Numbered from the stretch's first letter, positions 986-32,710 are shown. The stretch: DNA of 64,000 nucleotides from Gallionellaceae bacterium (GCA_028714875.1 JAQTLN010000016.1:1-64000), one strand, 5' to 3'. Notes: generated by a model from the sequence alone, not told the origin. Made by a program: numbers and translations.

Positions 986-3900
986 CTACTCCGAAGCCGC
1001 CGGCCCAGCCTGAAAAATCGGCAACAGCTTCTCCAGTTCCTCGGCCGGAATCGGCCGGCTGAACAGGTATCCCTGGTAGGCATCGCAGCCCATGGCGCCG
1101 AGGATTTCCAACTGCTGTCGCGTTTCCACGCCCTCCGCCAGCACCTCCAGGCGCAGGTTGCGCGCCATGGCGATGATGGTGGCGGCGATCTCGCGGTCGT
1201 TGGGGTCGTCGGCGAGGCCGTCGACGAAACCGCGGTCGATCTTGAGTTTGTCGATGGGGAAACGCTTGAGATAGGCCAGCGAGGAATAGCCGGTGCCGAA
1301 GTCGTCGATGGCCAGGCGCACGCCCAGCGCCTTGAGGGCATCCAGGGTGGCGATGGCCTGGTCCGCTTGCCCCATGATGACGCTCTCGGTCAGTTCCAGT
1401 TCCAGGTAACTCGCCGGCAGGCCGGTATCAAGCAGCACCGCGCGCACCAGTTCCACCATGTCCACGGCCTGGAACTGGCGTCCCGACAGGTTCACCGCCA
1501 TGACCAGCGGCGGCAGGCCGGTATCGAGCCAGGTACGCGCCTGGGCGCAGGCGGTACGCAATACCCATTCTCCCAGGGGCACGATCAGGCCGGTTTCCTC
1601 GGCGATGGGGATGAACTTGTCCGGCGGCACCAGTGCTTCGCCCGGTGGTTGCCAGCGCACCAGGGCCTCGACGCCGAAGATCTGGCCGCTGTGGGCTTCG
1701 ATCAGCGGCTGGTAATGCAGCACGAATTCGTCGCGCTCCAGGGCATGGCGCAGATGGGTTTCCAGGGATAGCCGTTCGCTGGCGGCGGTGCTCAGGGCTT
1801 CGGTATGGAAGCTGTAAGTGTTGCGGCCCCGCTGTTTGGCCTGATACATGGCCACGTCGGCATGCTGAATCAGTTCCGTGACCGTCTCGGCGTCGTCCGG
1901 GAACAGGCTGATGCCGATGCTGACGCCGACGAACACCTCATGCCCGCTGGGCAGATTGAACGGCACCACGAGCTGGTCGATAAGGGATTGCGCCACGGCG
2001 GCGGCATGTTCCGGTTGCGCCACGAACTCCAGCACCAGCAGAAACTCGTCGCCGCCCAGCCGCGCCAGCGTGTCTTCCTCACGCAAACGGCTACTCAGGC
2101 GTCGCGCCAGGGCCGCGAGCAGTTCGTCGCCGATCGGGTGGCCGAGGCTGTCGTTGACCGTCTTGAAACGGTCGAGGTCGATGTAGAGCGCCGCGACCCG
2201 GTAGTCGTGGCGCTCGGCGCGTTCGATGGCGTGTTGCAGGCGCGATTGCACCAGCAGCCGGTTGGGCAGATCGGTGAGCGGGTCGTAGTGCGCCAGGTGG
2301 TCGAGCCGTTCCTCGGACTGGCGAATCTGGCTCATGTCGGTGAATACACCGACGTAGTTGCATGCTTCGCCCCATTCGTCGCGCACCGTGCTGATGGAGA
2401 GCCATTGTGGGTAGATCTCGCCATTCTTGCGCCGGTTCCAGATCTCACCCTGCCAGTGGCCGGTCTCGCTGACGCTGGCCCACAGCGCCTGGTAGAAGGC
2501 GCGGTCGTGGCGGCCGGATTGCAGAATGCTGGGATTGTTGCCCAGCACCTCCGCCTCGCTGTAGCCGGTGATCTCGCTGTAGGCGCGGTTGATGGCGACG
2601 ATGCGCGGGCCGAGATCGGTGATCAGCACGCCGTCGCGGGTGCTCTCGAACACGGCGGCGGACTGGCGCAGGGCCTCGCCGGCGCGCACTTTCTGCACCG
2701 CGAGACTGGTGATGCGGGCGAATTCTTCGATCAATTCCAGATCGGCGGGCGCCGGTGCGCGTGGCGCGTCGTAATAGATGCCGAAGGTGCCCAGCACGCG
2801 TCCCGTCTCGTCCTTGAACGGCACCGACCAACAGGCATGCAGGCCGGCGCGTTGGGTCACCTCCAGATAGGGTGCCCAGTACGGGTGGCTGTCGATGTCG
2901 GTGACGATGACCGCTTCGCCCAGCCAGGCCGCCGTGCCGCAGGAACCACGCCCCTCGCCGGGCTCCAGGCCTTCAACCGCCGCGTTGTAGAAGTCCGGCA
3001 GACTGGGCGCGGCGCCATTGCTCAAGAGGCCGCTGCGCGGGTCGATCAGCAGGATGGAGACGCGCATGTCCGGGCCGATGGCCTCCAGGCGGCGCGCGAT
3101 GTCGTCCAGGATGCCCGGCAGCGGCCGATTGGCGACGATCTGATCGAGCACCGCGTTGCGCGTCAGTTGCACCGACTCGGTCCGCTTGCGTTCGTTGATG
3201 TCGAGCCAGGCGCCCACGACTTCCAGCGGCCGGCCTTGCTCGTCACGCAGCAACCGTTGGTCGTCGCGGACCCAGAGGTAGCGGCCATCCCGGTGCTGAA
3301 AACGATATTCGTGGGCGTACTCGCCCTGCGTGAACAGGATGGTTTTGCCGGCCGCCGCCGCGTCACGGTCGTCCGGATGCACGTGCGACCACCACCAATG
3401 CGGCGCCAATGCCTCCGCCGGCGTGTAACCCAGCAGGCTTGCCATGTTTTCGCTCACCCAGGTCGCGCGCAGGTTCTCGCCCGCGACGCGCAGGCTGTAA
3501 AGAATGCTGGGGCTGGTGGCGAGCAGATGGGAAAGGCGTTGGCTGGCCTCGCGCAGGCTGGCCCGTTCACGCGCCAATTCCGCCTGGCGCTGCACCTTTT
3601 CCAGAGTCGCGGCGAGCTCGTAGAGATAGCCTTCGTGCTTGGCCAGATAGTCGTCGACCCCCAGATGCAGGGCGCGCGCGGCCACTTCCTCGCTGCCGTG
3701 CCCGGTGATCAGGACGATGGGCAAATCCAGGCCGCGTTCCTCGCGCAGCACCTTGGTCAATTCCAGGCCATCCATGCCCGGCAGGCGGTAATCGACCAGC
3801 AGCAGGTCGAAATCGGCGGCTTCCGCGAGTGATTGCGGCAGCCGCGCCAGGGCTTCATGGGCGCTGGTCACCGTGGTCAGGCGGATGTGCGGCGCGTGTT

Positions 3901-4363
3901 GCGCCAGATGGCGGCGCATCAGGTCCACATCGAACACGTTGTGTTCGGCATAGAGCACGCGCAATACCCGGCTTCTACGCAGCGTGGATTCGTGGAAACG
4001 GGCGAGCGCGGCATTCAGCGTGCGCGGCAGGCGCTCCAGGTAATCGCCGCGCTTGACCAGATAATCGTCCGCCCCGGCCTTGAGCGCGGCGATGGCGGCG
4101 TCCTGGTCGCCGGAGCCGGTGAGGATGACCACCGCCATCGGCAGGGCCTGGCCGCGCACATAAGCCAGTGCCTCCAGGCCGGAGCCATCCGGCAGGGAAA
4201 GGTCGGAGAGCAGGAGATCGTGGCGCTCCACCTCGGCCAGGCAAGCCAGCCCGTCGCGCAACGTGGGCGCCACCACCAGTTCGATTTCCGGCGCCAGTCG
4301 CGCCAGCGCGTGGCGCGCCAGATCGGCATCGCTGGTGGAGTCTTCGATATAGAGAACCCGCAT
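986..4363 (-). CDS. REC-REC-PAS-GAF-PAS-GGDEF-EAL signalling protein
   Basis: This cytoplasmic c-di-GMP turnover protein of about 1125 aa has no membrane segment. Visible order: REC1 (MRVLYIEDSTSDADL, acceptor in LLLSDLSLPDGSG), REC2 (VLRVLYAEH, acceptor in LLLVDYRLPGMDG), PAS near 280-400, GAF near 420-560, PAS near 580-690, GGDEF near 700-860 and EAL near 870-1110. The GGDEF signature is intact (LARLGGDEF) with an RxxD I-site-like REED five residues upstream. The EAL motif (GVEALVRW) and DDFGTGYSS are also present, so both activities are possible. I chose the internal ATG at 4363 because GAGGT lies about 8 nt upstream; the track start at 4399 lies inside the preceding gene. It is 5 bp downstream of the single-domain response regulator and surely cotranscribed with it. 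Confidence 0.9.
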   Translation of the reverse strand: MRVLYIEDSTSDADLARHALARLAPEIELVVAPTLRDGLACLAEVERHDLLLSDLSLPDGSGLEALAYVRGQALPMAVVILTGSGDQDAAIAALKAGADDYLVKRGDYLERLPRTLNAALARFHESTLRRSRVLRVLYAEHNVFDVDLMRRHLAQHAPHIRLTTVTSAHEALARLPQSLAEAADFDLLLVDYRLPGMDGLELTKVLREERGLDLPIVLITGHGSEEVAARALHLGVDDYLAKHEGYLYELAATLEKVQRQAELARERASLREASQRLSHLLATSPSILYSLRVAGENLRATWVSENMASLLGYTPAEALAPHWWWSHVHPDDRDAAAAGKTILFTQGEYAHEYRFQHRDGRYLWVRDDQRLLRDEQGRPLEVVGAWLDINERKRTESVQLTRNAVLDQIVANRPLPGILDDIARRLEAIGPDMRVSILLIDPRSGLLSNGAAPSLPDFYNAAVEGLEPGEGRGSCGTAAWLGEAVIVTDIDSHPYWAPYLEVTQRAGLHACWSVPFKDETGRVLGTFGIYYDAPRAPAPADLELIEEFARITSLAVQKVRAGEALRQSAAVFESTRDGVLITDLGPRIVAINRAYSEITGYSEAEVLGNNPSILQSGRHDRAFYQALWASVSETGHWQGEIWNRRKNGEIYPQWLSISTVRDEWGEACNYVGVFTDMSQIRQSEERLDHLAHYDPLTDLPNRLLVQSRLQHAIERAERHDYRVAALYIDLDRFKTVNDSLGHPIGDELLAALARRLSSRLREEDTLARLGGDEFLLVLEFVAQPEHAAAVAQSLIDQLVVPFNLPSGHEVFVGVSIGISLFPDDAETVTELIQHADVAMYQAKQRGRNTYSFHTEALSTAASERLSLETHLRHALERDEFVLHYQPLIEAHSGQIFGVEALVRWQPPGEALVPPDKFIPIAEETGLIVPLGEWVLRTACAQARTWLDTGLPPLVMAVNLSGRQFQAVDMVELVRAVLLDTGLPASYLELELTESVIMGQADQAIATLDALKALGVRLAIDDFGTGYSSLAYLKRFPIDKLKIDRGFVDGLADDPNDREIAATIIAMARNLRLEVLAEGVETRQQLEILGAMGCDAYQGYLFSRPIPAEELEKLLPIFQAGPAASE

Positions 4364-4368
4364 GTCGC

Positions 4369-4803
4369 TTACCTCGGCCGCTCGTTGGTCACGCACCAAT
4401 ACAGTTCGATCCGTTGCGCCACCTCCATGAAGTTGTCGAAATCCACCGGCTTGACGATGTAGGAATTGGCGCCGAGGCGGTAGGCGGCTTGGATGTCGTG
4501 GTCTTCCTTCGAGGTGGTCAGGATCACCACCGGAATGTGCCGCGACACCGGATGGGCCTTGAGTTCGCGCAGCACGGTGAGGCCATCCACACGCGGCATG
4601 TTGAGATCGAGCAGGATCACCGCCGGCAGCGCTTCACCCGCTTCCCAGCGTGGCACCCAGGCCAGCGCCTCCTCGCCGTCGCGCGCCACCAGCACCGGGT
4701 TGGTGAGTTTGCGGCGGGCGAAGGCGCGCAGGGTGAGATCGACATCCACCGGGTTGTCTTCCACGAGCAGGATGGGGGGGTGAGCGTAGGCGGGGGTCAT
4801 CAT
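4369..4803 (-). CDS. Rcp1-type single-domain response regulator
   Basis: This 144-aa protein is a stand-alone receiver domain: ILLVEDNPVDVDLTLRAF, acceptor Asp in VILLDLNMPRVDG, the Thr in VVILTTSKED and the Lys in IVKPVDF. The C-terminal YWCVTNE ending is typical of the Rcp1 family, whose members pair with phytochrome-like kinases. I chose ATG 4803 over the track start 4887 because GGAG precedes it by about 6 nt and the upstream residues do not look like a receiver. It is the first gene of the operon with the REC-REC-GGDEF-EAL protein, so it probably relays phosphoryl signal to c-di-GMP output or competes for the same kinase. Confidence 0.88.
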   Translation of the reverse strand: MMTPAYAHPPILLVEDNPVDVDLTLRAFARRKLTNPVLVARDGEEALAWVPRWEAGEALPAVILLDLNMPRVDGLTVLRELKAHPVSRHIPVVILTTSKEDHDIQAAYRLGANSYIVKPVDFDNFMEVAQRIELYWCVTNERPR

Positions 4804-4921
4804 GTTCAGCTCCACGGTGAAATTCGCCCAGGCCGCCGCGTGGCGGTCGCTCGACGTCGGGCAAGCGCGCAGGTTACACCCGGCCAAACGTGTTTGGCTC
4901 GTGACGCCGGCTTACGAGGCT

Positions 4922-5048
4922 CCCCCCTTTGGGAAGGCTCTATTACCGTTACCTGGTGATGCGGTTGGCGCGGTGGTTCCCCCCTTTTTCAAAGGGGGGT
5001 TAGGGGGGATTTCTGAGACGGCCGCACAGGCAAACGTTACTAAATCCC
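4922..5048 (-). repeat. MITE-like G5/C5 palindromic element, copy 2 (inverted)
   Basis: This is the reverse complement of the 827-960 element: a tail with CTGGTGATGCGGTTGGCGCG, then hairpin B (CCCCCCTTTTTCAAAGGGGG), then hairpin A reversed (GGGGGGATTTCTGAGACGG). Copies 1 and 2 therefore form long inverted repeats around the response regulator/GGDEF-EAL operon. The rest of the 4804-5294 gap holds a further small hairpin and no recognisable gene. Confidence 0.8.
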
Positions 5049-5073
5049 TGCTTATACCCTTCGGTACCTCGTT

Positions 5074-5092
5074 CCCCCTTTGGGAAAGGGGG
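5074..5092. repeat. G5/C5 short hairpin
   Basis: CCCCCTTTGGGAAAGGGGG is a perfect 8-bp-arm palindrome of the same family as hairpin B of the larger elements. It stands alone in the gap before the first hybrid kinase. Confidence 0.7.
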
Positions 5093-5294
5093 AGCGGGCT
5101 CCACGCGGTTCCGGTACCCACACCCCCCTGGCGGCGCTTCATTCAAGATTTCTCCAGGGGGGTCGATAACCCGACGACATTCACTGCCGGGATTGTCGCG
5201 GCCATGCCGAATAGTCAAAGCGTCACCCTCGTTTTCATCGTCGAATCGTTCGAGAAACTCGCGGCACCCGGTTTCCGTGGCGAGCCTGTTGGCG

Positions 5295-8200
5295 ATGGCC
5301 GGCAAGATGCCTGATGCGCCCGCTGGCGACCCACTCCGGTTGCCCGCCATGAACTGGCCGCGCTGGTCGATCTATGTATTCGCGGTGGCGATTACCACGG
5401 CGATGCTGCTGCTCAGAATGACCCTGGCGCCGTCCTTCGGCGAGCGGCCGCTGCTGATTCTGCTCATGCTTCCCATCGTGCTCAGCGCACTGCTCGGCGG
5501 CATCGGGCCGGGGCTGCTCGCGACGTTCATCGCCGCCTGCGCTTCGGCCTGGTTCATCCCCCCGGTCGCTAAACTCGGGATCGAGGCCCGGCATGATCTG
5601 TTTCAGTGGGGCGCCCTCATCGTCAATGGCGTGCTCGTCAGCGCGCTGGCTGAATGGTTGCATCGCGTCCGTCGCCAGGTGGAGGTGGCCCGGTGCGCGC
5701 AGGCGGAACACTTGCGCACCCTGAACCTCATGGACGCCATCGCCGCCAGCTCCACCGATGCCATCTTCGCCAAGGACGCGGAGGGGCGTTTTCTGCTGTT
5801 CAACCGGGAGGCGGGGCGGGTGACCGGCCACCCGCCCGCGACAGTGCTCGGTCACGACTGCGCGATGCTTTTCCCTCCCGGACAAGCCGCCAAAATCATG
5901 CTCAACGACCAGTTGGTGATGGCGGAAAATCGCACCGTGACCTTTCAGGAGGAGCTTGTCACCACGGACGGCGAGCGCACCTTCCTGTCCACCAAGGGGC
6001 CGTTGCACGACGCTGATGGCAAGGTCGTCGGCCTGTTCGGCATCGCCCGCGACATCACTGAACTCAAACAAGTCGAAGCGGCGCTGCGGGAGAGTGAAGG
6101 GCGCTTCCGCGCGCTGGTGGAGGAGTCCCTGGCCGGCATCTACATCATCCAGGACGACCACTTCCGTTATGTCAATCCAGGTTTCGCCGCCCTCTTCGGC
6201 TATGACGCGCCGGAGGACTTGATCGACCGGGTGCCGGTCGCCGATCTGGTCAGCCCGGAAGACCGCGATTGGGTGGCCGAGTACCTCCGTCGCCGCCTCG
6301 AAGGCGAGATCGCGGATGCGCATTACACCTTTACCGGCCTGCGCCGCGATGGCCGCCGCGTCGATGTCGAGGTGCATGGCCGCGCCTTCGACTATCAGGG
6401 CCGCCCGGCGGTCATCGGTCTGATCCTGGACATTACCGAGCGCAAGCTGACTGAATTCAATCTCGCACGGGAGCGTGGTCTGCTCAAGACCCTGTTACAG
6501 ACCTTGCCGGATATCGTCTGGCTGAAGAACCCGGATGGCATCTATCTGGCGTGCAATCCTCGTTTCGAGCGTTTTGTCGGGGCCGGGGAGGCGGACATCC
6601 TCGGCAAGACCGATTACGACTTCGTGGACAAGGAATTGGCCGACCATTTCCGCGCCAAGGACCGTGCCGCCATCGCCGCCGGCAAACCCACCAGCAACGA
6701 AGAGGAAGTGACCTTCGCCGACGACGGCCACCGCGAACTGCTGGAAACCGTCAAAACCCCCATGTTCGATGCCGACGGGCGGCTCATCGGCGTCCTCGGC
6801 ATCGCCCGCGACATCACCGCCGCTCGCCAGGCGCGGGAGGCGCTGCGCAGGCAAGGCAAGCTGCTGGCCGAGTCGCAGCGCATCGCCCACATCGGCAGCT
6901 GGGAGGCCGAACTGCCGCTTAGCGTCATCACCTGGTCGGATGAGTTGTATCGACTCTATGGCGTCTCGCCCGAGTCTTTCGCACCCACGCCCGAGACGTT
7001 TATCCAGTTGATCCATCCGGATGACCGGCTTGCAATGCAGGTTTGGATACAAGCCTGTGTCGCCGGAGAACAGCCCGGCGACCTTGAATTTCGCGCGCTC
7101 CATCCCGACGGCGCGGTGCGCTTCATCAGCGGGCGCGGCGAACTGGTGCGCGACGCCGATGGCCGGCCGATCCGCATGGTCGGCACGGCGCAGGACATCA
7201 CCGCGCGCAAACTGGAACAGGAGGCGCTGCGCGAGAGCGAGGAGCGGCATCGGGCCGTGCTGACCGCCCTGGGCGAGGGGGTGTATGGCATGGACCGGGA
7301 GGGTCGCTGCACCTTCGTCAATAGCGCCGCTCTGGCCATGCTGGGCTTCAGCGAGGAAGAAATGCTGGGGCGGAACCAGCACGAGCTGTTCCACCATCAC
7401 CGCCCGGATGGTCGGCCCTACCCCAGTTCCGAATGCCCCATCTTCCTGACCTTGCGCGATGGCCAGGCGCGCAGCCGGGTGGAGTGGTTCATCCGCAAGG
7501 ACGGCACCCTGTTCCCCGTGGAAATGATCGCCACGCCGATGACGGAGGGCGGCGAACAAGTGGGCGCGGTGGTGTCGTTCCAGGACATCACCGTGCGTCT
7601 GGAGGCCGAGGATCAGGTTCGCAAGCTTTCGCTGGCCGTGGAGCAGAGCCCGGAAAGCATCGTCATCACCAACCTGAAAGCCGAGATCGAATATGTCAAC
7701 GAAACCTTCCTGCGCGCCACCGGCTATCGCCGCGAGGAGGTGATCGGGCAGAACCCGCGCCTGCTGCAATCCGGCAGAACCCCACGGGAAACCTACGTCG
7801 CGTTATGGCAGGCCATGGCCCAGGGCCACCCCTGGAAAGGCGAGTTCATCAACCGACGCAAGGATGGCGGTGAATATGTCGAGCTGGCCGTCATCACCCC
7901 CCTGCGCCAGGCGGATGGCCGCATCAGCCACTATGTGGCGGTACAGGAAGACATCACCGAGAAGAAGCGCATCGGCGTCGAGCTGGATCAGCATCGCCAC
8001 CATCTGGAAGGCCTGGTGGCGCAACGCACCGCCGAACTGACGGTCGCCAAGACTCAGGCGGAAGCGGCCAACCAGGCCAAGAGCGCCTTCCTGGCCAACA
8101 TGAGCCATGAAATCCGCACCCCCATGAACGCCATCCTCGGCCTCACCCATCTGCTGCAACGGGCGGGTGTGACCCCGGAGCAGGGCGATCGTCTCGGCAA

Positions 8201-24864: not shown

Positions 24865-25434
24865 TTACATCGGGCGCCGCCGCAGCCCTACCATGCCGAT
24901 CAGTCCCAGCCCCAGCAATCCCATCGTCGCGGGTTCCGGTACGGGGTTCGAGGAGATGTTCAGCGACCAGGCATAGAGCGCCCCGCTGTCCAATCCCGCC
25001 TGGTCGGAGATGCGCAATGTCCAGGTGCCGAAAGCATCCTGGCCGTTGAAGACCGAGAGAGGGTCTTCCGGGCGGAAACTGCCGGTGAACGGGGCGCTGC
25101 CGCCGCCAATCGCGGTCAGCGCCTGATCGTCGAACACGGTGTTGATGAAGTTGTCGCCACTGCCGCCACGGTTTCTGGAGAGCGTCACCGTGGTGCTGGA
25201 CGGCGCGATCAAGCTGATCAAGAGATCGGCGTCAAAGGTATGGCGCAGGTCACCGATGATGGCTTCGAGATCGGTGATCACCATGTGGTCGTTCACCGTC
25301 AGGGTGGAATACGACGTGGTGTAGTCGTAGATGCCGACCGGCACATTGCTGCTGGAGATGACATAAGCATGCGCGACATTGCCCATCAGGCCGAGGGCCG
25401 CGAGGGTGCACGCGAGGAGGGTTCGGGTTTTCAT
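24865..25434 (-). CDS. PEP-CTERM protein with a proprotein-convertase P-like domain
   Basis: 189 aa. It has a signal peptide (MKTRTLLACTLAALGLMGNVAHA) and a beta-rich body. GTWTLRISDQAGLDSGALYAW resembles the P/Hom domain of subtilisin-like convertases. The C-terminus carries a PEP-CTERM sorting signal: VPEPATMG, a hydrophobic stretch (LLGLGLIGMVGL) and RRR. It should be cleaved and exported by an EpsH/XrtA-type exosortase, often with exopolysaccharide. AAGGTAAG precedes the ATG. A sigma54-type promoter lies 40-54 nt upstream. No exosortase gene is in the window. Confidence 0.88.
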   Translation of the reverse strand: MKTRTLLACTLAALGLMGNVAHAYVISSSNVPVGIYDYTTSYSTLTVNDHMVITDLEAIIGDLRHTFDADLLISLIAPSSTTVTLSRNRGGSGDNFINTVFDDQALTAIGGGSAPFTGSFRPEDPLSVFNGQDAFGTWTLRISDQAGLDSGALYAWSLNISSNPVPEPATMGLLGLGLIGMVGLRRRPM

Positions 25435-28633: not shown

Positions 28634-29341
28634 TTACAGGTCGCCGTTGGCGGCGGCTCTCATGATGTTGTCCATCTTGTCGCGGATGTCGGTGGCGTGT
28701 TTCAGCAACTGACTGGGGGCGCCCATCTTGCCGGAGATGGAATCCAGCCAGGAGGTGTTCCAGTCCAGGCTGAGCACCCAGATGTTCTTGTCGGCATCTT
28801 CCATGATGGCGATGCGGCAAGGCAGGTAGACGATGGATTCCGGGGCGTATTTGAGAATTTCGCGGCCGGCGGCGATGTCGCAGTAGTGGTAGACCTCGAT
28901 GCGCGGCGCGTCGGTGTCGCCCAGCACGGCCCGGATGTCCTTCCACATCGGGCTCTCGCCGACTTTCTTGAAGTTGAGCTGGTTGGCGCGCAGTTCCATG
29001 GACTGCTTGACGTCATCGAAGCTCAGGCCTTTCTTGGCCGGGTACTTGATGGCCATGAGGTTCATGACGTCCTTGATGTCCATGCGCGTGACCATGTTCA
29101 TCATGGGCATCATTTTTCTCATCATCGCCTCTTTTTCTTCCGGAGGGATGGTGCGCGACATTTCATAAGGGCGGGTGCCACGACCACCGGGAGACACCGG
29201 TAAGACCATGGGGCCGGCGGAAATCGGCACATGAGTCAGATAGGGGTTGGCGGCGGGCGCGGGGTCGGCGGCCAGGGTGGGGACGGTCAGGCTCAGAGCC
29301 AGGGTGGCGAGTAGGGTTTGTTTCATGCCGCGAATAGTCAT
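28634..29341 (-). CDS. Secreted DUF302 protein, copy A
   Basis: 235 aa with a signal peptide (MKQTLLATLALSLTVPTLAA). A Met-rich segment (MMRKMMPMMNMVTRM) precedes a DUF302-type domain: ELRANQLNFKKVGESPMW, IEVYHYCDIAAGREILKYAP, VYLPCRIAIMEDADKNIWV. I chose ATG 29341 because AGAAAGG is 9 nt upstream; the paralogous gene has the same leader arrangement. It is a close paralogue of 30617-31354 with an identical C-terminus (KMDNIMRAAANGDL). It lies after a degraded rhodanese, showing that the rhodanese-DUF302 pair was duplicated. Periplasmic function is unknown. Confidence 0.82.
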   Translation of the reverse strand: MTIRGMKQTLLATLALSLTVPTLAADPAPAANPYLTHVPISAGPMVLPVSPGGRGTRPYEMSRTIPPEEKEAMMRKMMPMMNMVTRMDIKDVMNLMAIKYPAKKGLSFDDVKQSMELRANQLNFKKVGESPMWKDIRAVLGDTDAPRIEVYHYCDIAAGREILKYAPESIVYLPCRIAIMEDADKNIWVLSLDWNTSWLDSISGKMGAPSQLLKHATDIRDKMDNIMRAAANGDL

Positions 29342-29383
29342 TGTCTGCATCCTTTCTCGTGAAAACTGATTTGATTGTGATGG

Positions 29384-29535
29384 TCACCAGGAAGTGACCC
29401 TGCTCAGGCTCAGCGATTTCCAGCTCAGCTGGCCGCCACGATACCACTTGAGTTTGCGTGCCGGATAACCGCGCTTGGCGCGCGATGACTTGATGTTGTC
29501 GGGGGATTTCCCCGACGGGGACAGTGTTTTTCCCC
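29384..29535 (-). pseudogene. 3' remnant of a rhodanese gene
   Basis: On the minus strand one frame reads GKTLSPSGKSPDNIK, then GYPARKLKWYRGGQLSWKSL, and then a stop. This aligns with the C-terminus of the intact rhodanese at 31396-32046 (AKTLVLYCNGPWCGQSPTNIK, GYPAHKLKWYRGGIQDWKML). About six residues including the catalytic Cys are missing, and no sequence upstream of KTL remains. It sits just before DUF302 copy A exactly as the intact rhodanese sits before copy B. A hairpin lies at its 5' breakpoint. Confidence 0.82.
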
Positions 29536-29558
29536 CTCGCCTCTCCGAGGTGAGGGGG
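29532..29558. repeat. Hairpin at the pseudogene breakpoint
   Basis: CCCCCTCGCCTC and GAGGTGAGGGGG pair over 12 bp (one G-T pair) around a TCC loop. It lies 8 bp beyond the stop of the NPF-rich gene and directly at the truncated end of the rhodanese remnant. It may serve as a terminator or mark an insertion/deletion event. Confidence 0.6.
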
Positions 29559-29565
29559 GCCTGAG

Positions 29566-30501
29566 TTACTTGGCGGGTTCCGCCTGCTTCAGAAACATCT
29601 GCAGCAGTGTCGCCGGGTCCATAGGCATGACCGGGGTCGCTGTCAGCGCGGGCGTCGCCGGGGCGGGCAAATTGGCCTGTGGCGCGGCTTTCCCGTCAGC
29701 CGGTTTGGCCGCGGGCGCCGGCGTCACTGCCGGCGCGGCAACGGGGGGCGACGTCATGAACTGCGGGAACGGCTGTTGCGCGGCGGGCTGGTTGGGAGGG
29801 TTGAACGGGCTGGCCGCGGCGGGCTGTGCGGTGGCCTGCGGCATGGGTGGGAAGAAAGAGGAAGCCGGGCTTTGCGCCGGCTGGGGTGCCGCGGGCACGG
29901 GGAGCATCATGAAGAAGGGTAGCCCGGGTTGCTGGGCGGCGGGTGCCTGGAACGGGTTGCCCTGCTGAAAGGGGTTGCCTTGCTGGTATGGATTAGCCTG
30001 TGGATAGGGGTTGCCCTGCTGGAACGGATTACCCTGCGGTACCTGGAAGAAATTGGGCATGGCGGGTTGCGGCGCGGCGAAGGGCAGGCCGGGCATGTTC
30101 GGGATGGAGGGCGTGAAGGCCTGTGTGCCATAGCCGCGCGGTGTTGCGTAGCCTGGCATCGAAAAAGGCATCGGCGAGTTCTGCTGGGCGAAAGGATTGC
30201 CGGGGAAGGGTCCGCCCGCGTAAGGGTTGGAGAAGGGATTGATGTAACCACCGGTAAGCAGGCCGGGCGCCATTTGTAGCGCGGGGCCACCCAGCGCGCC
30301 GAGCGCGGCCAGTCCACCCAGGCTGAGCAAGGGGTTGGAGAGTGGGTTGAAGCCCCCGTAGCCGCCATATCCACCATAGCCGCCGAAGGGGTTGAACGAG
30401 GGTGTCGGCGCCATCATGGCGAGCGGGTTCAACATGTTCTCGAAACCGGCCTGGGCCGAACCGGCGACGGCGACGAGCAATAGCGGGGCTAGGCGTTTCA
30501 T
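29566..30501 (-). CDS. Secreted low-complexity NPF / GYGG / Pro-rich protein
   Basis: 311 aa with a signal peptide (MKRLAPLLLVAVAGSAQAG). The mature protein has GGYGGYGGYGGFNP near residue 40, then many NPF/NPY repeats with Gln and Gly (GNPFQQGNPYPQANPYQQG). A Pro/Ala-rich C-terminal half ends DPATLLQMFLKQAEPAK. GGAGATATTC precedes the ATG. No enzymatic domain is visible. It lies inside the secreted rhodanese/DUF302 cluster on the same strand. Gly/Tyr/Asn-rich secreted proteins include the structural proteins of periplasmic sulfur globules, so such a role is a possibility, but I see no direct homology. Confidence 0.75.
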   Translation of the reverse strand: MKRLAPLLLVAVAGSAQAGFENMLNPLAMMAPTPSFNPFGGYGGYGGYGGFNPLSNPLLSLGGLAALGALGGPALQMAPGLLTGGYINPFSNPYAGGPFPGNPFAQQNSPMPFSMPGYATPRGYGTQAFTPSIPNMPGLPFAAPQPAMPNFFQVPQGNPFQQGNPYPQANPYQQGNPFQQGNPFQAPAAQQPGLPFFMMLPVPAAPQPAQSPASSFFPPMPQATAQPAAASPFNPPNQPAAQQPFPQFMTSPPVAAPAVTPAPAAKPADGKAAPQANLPAPATPALTATPVMPMDPATLLQMFLKQAEPAK

Positions 30502-30616
30502 GAATATCTCCAGGAAGTAGGGAGGGAGAACCGGGAACCGGTGTCTCGTGCGGGTCGTGATGATCAGGACCTGGGATTGGTGCCCCCACCGGAGTCGGTG
30601 AGGGGCGGCTTGCCTG

Positions 30617-31354
30617 TTACAGGTCGCCGTTGGCGGCGGCTCTCATGATGTTGTCCATCTTGTCGCGGATAATGACGGCGTGGTCCCACAGCACGTCAGG
30701 CGTGCCCATCCGGCCTTTGACGGAATCCAGCCAGGTGGTATCCCAATCCAGGGTCATCACCCAGATGTTCTTGTCCGCGTCTTCCATGATGGTGAAACGG
30801 CAGGGCATGTAGACGGCGGATTCCGGGGAGTACTTGAGCATTTCCCGGCCCACGGCGATGTCGCAGTAGTGGTAGACCTCGATGCGCGGCGCGTTCATGT
30901 CGCCCAGCACGGCCTGGAAGTCTTTCCACATCGGGCTCTCACCGACTTTCTTGAAGTTGAGGCTGTTGGCGCGCAGCTCCATGGAGGCCTTCACGTCGTC
31001 GAAAGTCAGGCCCGGCTTGGCTTTGTACTTGATGGTCATGAGGTTCATCATGTCCTTCAAGTCCATGCGCGTGGTCATGTTCATCAAGGGCAGCATCGAC
31101 TTGATCAGGCCCGCCTTCACATCCTGCGGAACGACGCCCGACATTTCATAGGGGCGGACACCCTGAGCCGGGAACTTCGGGATTGACGGGAGCGACGGGA
31201 GCGACGGGAACTTCGGAAGCGTCAGGCCGGTGGTAGCCGGTACATTGGTCAGGTAGGGGTTGCCCGTGGGTGCCGGATCGGCGGCCAGCGCGGGAACGGC
31301 CAGGGCCAGTGCGAGGGTGGCGAGTAGGGTGTGTTTCATGCTGCTGTTAGTCAT
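30617..31354 (-). CDS. Secreted DUF302 protein, copy B
   Basis: 245 aa with a signal peptide (MKHTLLATLALALAVPALAA). A Pro/Ser/Leu repeat (FPSLPSLPSIPKFP) is absent from copy A. Next come a Met-rich segment (MNMTTRMDLKDMMNLM) and the DUF302-type domain (YHYCDIAVGREMLKYSPE, YMPCRFTIMEDADKNIWV). ATG 31354 is preceded by AGGAAGG at the same spacing as in copy A. The track ORF starting at 32023 reads through from the antisense-frame upstream region and is not the real start. It is 41 bp downstream of the intact rhodanese, so it is probably one operon. Confidence 0.83.
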   Translation of the reverse strand: MTNSSMKHTLLATLALALAVPALAADPAPTGNPYLTNVPATTGLTLPKFPSLPSLPSIPKFPAQGVRPYEMSGVVPQDVKAGLIKSMLPLMNMTTRMDLKDMMNLMTIKYKAKPGLTFDDVKASMELRANSLNFKKVGESPMWKDFQAVLGDMNAPRIEVYHYCDIAVGREMLKYSPESAVYMPCRFTIMEDADKNIWVMTLDWDTTWLDSVKGRMGTPDVLWDHAVIIRDKMDNIMRAAANGDL

Positions 31355-31395
31355 TGTTGCGTCCTTCCTGGTGAATACCAGTTTGATTGTTACGG

Positions 31396-32046
31396 TTACA
31401 TAGGTGCGACCGTGCTCAGGCCCAGCATTTTCCAGTCCTGGATGCCGCCACGATACCACTTGAGCTTGTGCGCCGGATAACCCAGTGCGAGTAACTGCTT
31501 GATGTTGGTGGGAGATTGCCCACACCAGGGACCGTTGCAGTAGAGGACCAGAGTCTTGGCGTTTTCGAAATTCCACAGGCTGCCCTGGCGCGCGGCGCCG
31601 AAGCGAAAAATCAGGGTTTCGACGATTTTTTCCACATCGGTGTGACCGGGATGCAGTTCCTGCCAAGGCAGTTGCACGGCGCCGGGGATGATGCCGGAAC
31701 GTAACGGCCAGTCGCCGTCGCGCGAGTCGATGACCATGACGCTGGCATCGCGGCCGAGCTTTTTCAGGTATTCCAGCATTTCCAGTTCGCCGATGGTTTC
31801 CACGCCGGGGGCGAGGTGCATGGGCTGGATGCAATAAGGCGGACAGGGACGCGAGGTGAGGGAGTAGTCCGGGTCGAGCATGTTTTCCGTGTCCGGATTG
31901 CGCTCGATGATGACTTTTTTGCCCTGGTGCAGCACTTCCACCGCCTTGACGGTCTGGGTGATGTTGACCGGTTTTTCGCTCGCCTGGGCAGGCGGGGCGC
32001 TTGCCCAGAACAGTGCAAAGCACGCCGCGGTGATGGCTGTTTTCAT
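31396..32046 (-). CDS. Secreted rhodanese-like protein
   Basis: 216 aa with a signal peptide (MKTAITAACFALFWASAPPAQA). An N-terminal region carries a Cys-Pro cluster (RPCPPYCIQPMHL). The rhodanese domain follows: MVIDSRDGDWPLRSGIIPGA, catalytic Cys in LVLYCNGPWCGQS, and LKWYRGGIQDW. It is predicted to move sulfane sulfur in the periplasm. AGGAGGAGG lies just before ATG 32046. It is the first gene of the rhodanese-DUF302-NPF cluster; a duplicated but broken copy is at 29384-29535. Confidence 0.87.
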   Translation of the reverse strand: MKTAITAACFALFWASAPPAQASEKPVNITQTVKAVEVLHQGKKVIIERNPDTENMLDPDYSLTSRPCPPYCIQPMHLAPGVETIGELEMLEYLKKLGRDASVMVIDSRDGDWPLRSGIIPGAVQLPWQELHPGHTDVEKIVETLIFRFGAARQGSLWNFENAKTLVLYCNGPWCGQSPTNIKQLLALGYPAHKLKWYRGGIQDWKMLGLSTVAPM

Positions 32047-32140: not shown

Positions 32141-32710
32141 TCAGTCGATGTACTCGAACACCTTCACGACTTTGGCGACACCGCTGGTCTTGGCGGCAAC
32201 CTCGGCGGCGGCGGCGCCCTCTTCGCGCTTGACCAGGCCTAGCAGGAATACGGTCCCGGCTTCGGTGACCACCTTGACGTGGTTGACGCTGAAGCGGCGG
32301 TCGTCCAGGAAGCGCGCCTTTACCTTGGTGGTGATGTAGGCATCGTTGCTGCGCGCCATGATGGTGCTGACGCCGGCCAGGAGGATCTCGTTCTGCACTT
32401 CGCGCACGTTAGTCACTTCCTTGGCGATCTGTTCCACCTTGGCGCGAGCGTCGGTGTCGGCGGTTTCCCCGGTCAGCAGCACGCGGCGGTTGTAGCTGGT
32501 GATGTTGACGTGAACACCTTCCTTGTAGGCATCGTGGATGCGGTTGGCCGCCTTCAGTTCGATTTCCTCGTCCATCAGGTAGGTGCCGGCGGTACGGCGG
32601 TCATCGGCCATCATCGCGCCGGCGCCGACGCCGACGGCGACGACAGGCACGCAGCCGCTCAGGTTGACTGCGGAAATGCCCAGCAGGGCGGTCAGGATGA
32701 GGGTTTTCAT
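32141..32710 (-). CDS. dolP: BON-domain outer-membrane lipoprotein (DolP/YraP-like)
   Basis: 189 aa with a lipoprotein signal (TALLGISAVNLSGC). A glycine-rich linker and two BON domains follow (about 50-115: AANRIHDAYKEGVHVNITSYNRRVLLTGE; about 125-189: TTKVKARFLDDRRFSVNHVKVV). DolP supports outer-membrane integrity and BAM function in enterobacteria. It is 3 bp after diaA, and the yraN-diaA-dolP order is conserved across proteobacteria. Confidence 0.88.
   Translation of the reverse strand: MKTLILTALLGISAVNLSGCVPVVAVGVGAGAMMADDRRTAGTYLMDEEIELKAANRIHDAYKEGVHVNITSYNRRVLLTGETADTDARAKVEQIAKEVTNVREVQNEILLAGVSTIMARSNDAYITTKVKARFLDDRRFSVNHVKVVTEAGTVFLLGLVKREEGAAAAEVAAKTSGVAKVVKVFEYID

Follow-up and report, generated by a model that had tools for sequence, protein, structure and literature searches.

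The genes considered here lie on the minus strand of a 64,000-nt stretch of DNA from Gallionellaceae bacterium (GCA_028714875.1 JAQTLN010000016.1:1-64000), hereafter the window. They comprise, in this order, a secreted rhodanese (RHOD), a DUF302 protein (copy A), a protein rich in NP motifs (NP-rich protein), the 3′ remnant of a second rhodanese gene, and a distal DUF302 protein (copy B). Judged from gene content and order, this module is best read as a Sox accessory operon that, in the genus to which the window belongs, has been relocated from soxYZ to a slot among housekeeping genes. On balance it is probable that, in this displaced operon, a SoxL-type rhodanese drains SoxYZ with DUF302 as its partner and the NP-rich protein as the storage protein. 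As SoxCD is missing, sulfane sulfur would remain on SoxYZ, from which the periplasmic rhodanese would take it and carry it as a cysteine persulfide. The secreted DUF302 proteins, with their two invariant cysteines, may act downstream by accepting or chaperoning this sulfur. The NP-rich protein may form or coat a periplasmic sulfur store that Dsr would later oxidise. The removal of sulfane sulfur from SoxYZ without SoxCD, and its storage, are poorly defined beyond the purple sulfur bacteria. The compact operon provides three concrete candidates in Thiobacillus-type bacteria, as well as a role hypothesis for the widespread DUF302 family, and is probably tied both to periplasmic sulfur transfer and to sulfur storage.

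The identity of the rhodanese is central to this reading. The protein matches PF00581 with 40 bits (cut-off 22.2). In a 15-row alignment with a mean column identity of 78%, Cys68, Cys72, Cys170 and Cys175 are invariant; one pair lies in an N-terminal RPCPPYC motif and the other in a CNGPWC loop (CNGPWCGQSP). The window rhodanese is 46-51% identical to those of loci L137, L143, L140 and L141. The first two have a complete soxCDXYZA-K-RHOD-B cluster, where the rhodanese gene is preceded by a SoxK-like gene and followed by soxB; in L140 (7735-8697) and L141 (7959-8930) SoxK (SAXB) and the rhodanese form one protein encoded after soxX-soxA; on the L140 fusion the SAXB model scores 86 bits, slightly below its 95-bit cut-off. 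This occurrence of the family in soxA-K-L-B order, or fused to SoxK, identifies the rhodanese by synteny and fusion as a SoxL-type sulfurtransferase, that is, a Sox accessory protein. In Allochromatium, a soxXAKL arrangement has been described, and the SoxL of A. vinosum has been proposed to hand the sulfane of SoxY to sulfur globules (PMC3368242). Like this protein (Alvin_2171), the window rhodanese is a secreted single-domain protein, as judged from its leader, with relatives in the same gene order or SoxK-fused, and it occurs in SoxCD-less, Dsr-containing sulfur oxidisers. Unlike it, the window gene lies away from sox, together with DUF302 and NP-rich genes, and the outgroups place it after soxYZ and not after soxXAK. 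A search of solved structures with the rhodanese sequence gave a single spurious match, and its AlphaFold2 (AF2) model is too poor for use (predicted local distance difference test, pLDDT, 53).

Gene neighbourhoods in relatives document the connection with soxYZ. Among the 61 relatives searched, the rhodanese is present in all 23 genomes of the window's genus, always with DUF302 directly downstream, and also in some other genera of the family. A low-charge, NP-rich secreted open reading frame (ORF) adjoins 34 of the 35 RHOD-DUF302 loci examined in the family, the exception being L168. Within the genus, the module sits between DiaA-BON and YgfZ. In the outgroup Thiobacillaceae, it lies directly downstream of soxYZ on the same strand, in the orders soxY-soxZ-RHOD-DUF302-NP (L045, L058), soxZ-RHOD-DUF302-NP (L060), soxYZ-RHOD-DUF302 (L168) and soxYZ-DUF302-NP (L056, L163). 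The window genome has a single rhodanese copy, at the displaced site away from sox; the gene is sox-adjacent in L045, L058, L060 and L168. In another family, L135 assembles an NP-repeat protein, DUF302, a YeeE-like protein, soxB, a TusA-like protein, RHOD and soxXYZA within ~14 kb. A first-pass annotation of this DNA had proposed a search for such neighbourhoods in sulfur-oxidising genomes, and the co-occurrence it anticipated proves to be both conserved and linked to sulfur oxidation. Several genomes of the family also carry a second or third operon of RHOD and DUF302 in which the NP-rich partner is a different protein (L059:8734-9477, L061:2303-3016, L171, L173, L175 and L177).

The gene content of the organism is that expected of a sulfur-storing type: soxB-A-X (C3), soxYZ (C6) and dsrA (C13) are present in the window genome, with no SoxC above cut-off (SoxD was not searched). 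Across 369 genomes of the class, RHOD occurs in 87, of which 72 also carry soxB (odds ratio 12.3) and 64 carry dsrA (odds ratio 11.5). Long-form DUF302 profile matches, which outside the family mostly cover the C-terminal domain only, are found in 75 genomes, 69 of them with soxB (odds ratio 29.7) and 74 with soxB or dsrA. Cyanide detoxification is a common role of rhodaneses, and one alternative is a redox or envelope-stress module in which rhodanese and DUF302 would protect the periplasm from reactive sulfur, cyanide or metals, with no role in energy metabolism. Such a module would suit a housekeeping slot adjoining a BON-type lipoprotein gene, and a DUF302 gene resembling one in the sqr plasmid operon of Synechocystis has been discussed under metal resistance (PMC5061849), but membership of soxYZ operons in the outgroups, fusion to SoxK and the enrichment with soxB and dsrA make it quite unlikely.

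Several points weigh against the displaced Sox operon. The SoxL type was assigned by gene order and fusion rather than by direct comparison with Alvin_2171. The loci are fixed within one genus, so that their conservation is in part due to recent shared ancestry, and no adjacent RHOD-DUF302 pair was seen outside the family. The enrichment tests ignore phylogeny, and nine RHOD-positive genomes of the 369 are without both soxB and dsrA. Among dsrA-positive genomes, RHOD and DUF302 show no association with one another (p 0.71); they are therefore two Sox/Dsr-linked parts that were joined into one operon in the family. Lastly, no homology could be detected between the NP-rich protein and known sulfur-globule proteins (Sgp), whose small size it does not share (~31 kDa versus 11-13 kDa for SgpA-C).

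The likeness to Sgp is one of composition. The NP-rich protein contains 21% proline, 13 NP motifs, 11 charged residues and neither Cys nor His, has no Pfam or NCBIfam match, and varies across loci in sequence and in length (173-432 aa). The Sgp proteins of A. vinosum are hydrophobic and Sec-exported, and their repetitive sequences have prolines at regular intervals (PMC10386293). Like SgpA-D of Allochromatium, the NP-rich protein displays a Sec leader (by inspection), low charge, repetitiveness and spaced prolines, and comes from a type of organism that stores sulfur; unlike them, it is NP-rich and is encoded beside sulfurtransferase genes. By analogy, it is a candidate structural protein of the sulfur-globule type. 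It is weightier than the first-pass annotation had it: in unrelated families, too, DUF302 repeatedly has secreted NP/MNP-rich proteins as neighbours, and MNP-repeat proteins flank DUF302 in G274, G074 and G104, three of them with a CxxCH motif. A wider proposal, advanced tentatively, is that long-form DUF302 and secreted NP/MNP-rich repeat proteins (some with CxxCH) make up a previously unrecognised sulfur deposition system. It would be fed by truncated Sox via SoxL and, in many sulfur oxidisers, would build the store of sulfur in the periplasm, a DUF302 paralogue having specialised after duplication in the window's genus.

As a separate observation, secreted MNP-repeat proteins with 10-residue ‘MNPAxYxx’ repeats stand beside long-form DUF302 in unrelated families, some of them in sox islands (L135:2169-2735, 3917-4855; L155:3078-3749, 3809-4501, 4595-5590; L157:5816-6487). 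In three MNP-repeat proteins CxxCH is followed by ‘ARYxKD’, and for those of L135, L155 and L157 Pfam and NCBIfam yielded nothing meaningful.

Neither SoxL nor a Sox-linked DUF302 gene is new in itself, and it is their combination as one module that appears undescribed; no description of a SoxL-DUF302-NP module was found in the open-access literature, subscription papers being outside the search. The initial idea of an undescribed periplasmic sulfur-handling system can be kept for the combination and is too strong for the parts, because the rhodanese is of SoxL type and the set ancestrally belongs to soxYZ operons.

The DUF302 proteins have invariant cysteines at C164 and C185. A sequence search of solved structures gave no match; in the AF2 model, the fold of the C-terminal domain matches the crystal structures 1q9u and 1j3m (Foldseek E ~2e-6), which, unlike the window proteins, are short and without the secreted N-terminal extension. 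The closest known setting is that of the Acidithiobacillia, where DUF302 is also Sox-linked and found in organisms with truncated Sox (soxXYZA-hyp-soxB; PMC5037610, PMC4109375); the window proteins differ in having 235-245 aa, which include an extra region at the N-terminus, in being present as two copies and in their pairing with SoxL and the NP-rich protein. From this setting comes the main rival to the displaced Sox operon, a polythionate role in which DUF302 and rhodanese would hydrolyse or shuttle periplasmic trithionate or higher polythionates (Kelly-Trudinger pathway), the NP-rich protein being a surface scaffold only. The truncated Sox of the window genome, without SoxC, is consistent with it, and the position of DUF302 between soxA and soxB in Acidithiobacillia has led to speculation on a role in trithionate oxidation (PMC5037610). 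However, the sox operon of T. thioparus has no DUF302 gene, its six DUF302 genes lying elsewhere, and this organism is noted to be unable to grow on trithionate (PMC5037610). A hydrolase signature was not found in the proteins, and the conserved coupling to SoxL and NP-rich proteins is left unexplained, so that a polythionate role is unlikely. Elsewhere in the window genome, a third DUF302 paralogue (G000:C19:36356-37102; L004:6357-7103), 48% identical, has neither sox nor NP partners; its surroundings are of the housekeeping type and include, by inspection, two phytoene/squalene-synthase-like genes and a malic-enzyme-like gene.

The history of the two copies can be read from the locus itself. 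The first-pass annotation, which used the labels A and B in reverse, had described the gene order, the DUF302 pair, the rhodanese remnant and a partial tandem duplication, along with signal peptides on all intact products, a shared leader arrangement and identical DUF302 C-termini, and all are recovered on the minus strand. Long direct repeats between the two copies, offset by ~2 kb (300 nt at 84%, 133 nt at 80% and 125 nt at 77%), prove the partial tandem duplication. The remnant aligns to the 3′ end of the intact rhodanese gene with a local score of 98, against maxima of 27-34 for shuffled comparable intergenic stretches. For the complete tract of rhodanese tail, spacer and leader the score is 212, and shuffling reached no more than 32. 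A remnant stands ahead of B at the equivalent position in the window, L034 and L036, and in L049 erosion has left 54 bp of it, lying between A and B (0/300 shuffles as high). The duplicated unit therefore began inside the rhodanese gene before the lineages split; the duplication is old and predates the species.

The remnant, spacer and leader of window copy B are all homologous to the junction between RHOD and DUF302-A, and L035, which is without the remnant, keeps a B-type leader; from this, copy B appears to have captured its start region from the operon front. The tandem duplication yielded two DUF302 genes, of which A diverged and B later apparently took the rhodanese-tail and leader segment. 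In the window, A and B end in the same 54 nt (28634-28687 and 30617-30670), compared with an exact shared 3′ end of only 5-24 nt in the other genomes compared, which suggests recent gene conversion. Most sister genomes have the order RHOD-A-B-NP; in the window, L034, L035 and, with broken contigs, L036 and L055, the NP gene separates A from B. Loss of a second NP gene downstream of B was considered and rejected: no clear NPF remnant is seen there, and the match in L034 is a spacer hairpin only.

In a tree of 49 DUF302 proteins, A forms one clade of 13 (support 100/100, stem 0.38) nested among B-type proteins, the type carried by single-copy genomes; a Pro-rich SLPSLPS linker is found in A. Comparisons between species give dN/dS values of 0.06-0.26 for copy A and 0.14-0.17 for copy B, with 0.11-0.18 for the rhodanese gene. 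All three genes are maintained, and purifying selection acts on each DUF302 copy. Of the two causes offered in the first-pass annotation, dosage and diversity, divergence is the likelier and dosage the less likely, because A is a single clade on a long stem. These values also bear on the possibility of a hitch-hiking, near-neutral locus, in which duplication and gene order would result from recent descent within a single genus, with the NP-rich ORF a product of low-complexity drift. Conservation that is strongest within one genus, and an NP-rich protein variable in length and sequence, would fit such a locus, but it is already contradicted by the constraint on all three folded genes, by the finding of this trio downstream of soxYZ in further genera and by the recurrence of NP/MNP-rich partners with differing sequences in unrelated families, and is highly improbable. 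Horizontal transfer of DUF302-A is not claimed: the tree places the window with L038-L041 and not with L049, yet its dS to L049 (0.43) is below that to L041 (0.62).

Features of the module and the gene upstream of it, in window coordinates
Feature	Position	Strand	Basis
SoxL-type secreted rhodanese, 216 aa	31396..32046	-	PF00581 E 5.6e-10; synteny and SoxK fusion in homologues
DUF302 copy A, 245 aa, derived paralogue	30617..31354	-	PF03625 E 1.6e-7
NP-rich secreted low-complexity protein, 311 aa	29566..30501	-	Composition; conserved beside RHOD-DUF302
Remnant of second rhodanese gene, 3′ end only	~29396..29525	-	Alignment to intact gene
Copy B spacer, ribosome-binding region and signal-peptide leader	29212..29395	-	Direct repeats D2, D3
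DUF302 copy B, 235 aa, ancestral-type	28634..29341	-	PF03625 E 1.6e-6
BON-type lipoprotein gene, upstream, outside module	32141..32710	-	Domain named by inspection; DiaA-BON-RHOD order conserved in BON-slot loci

Export of the four intact products is predicted from typical Sec leaders, recognised by inspection. Promoter and terminator scans gave no signal above chance. Further along the minus strand, at window positions 24865-25434, a secreted protein has a PEP-CTERM-like C-terminus (VPEPATMGLLGLGLIGMVGLRRR), again by inspection.

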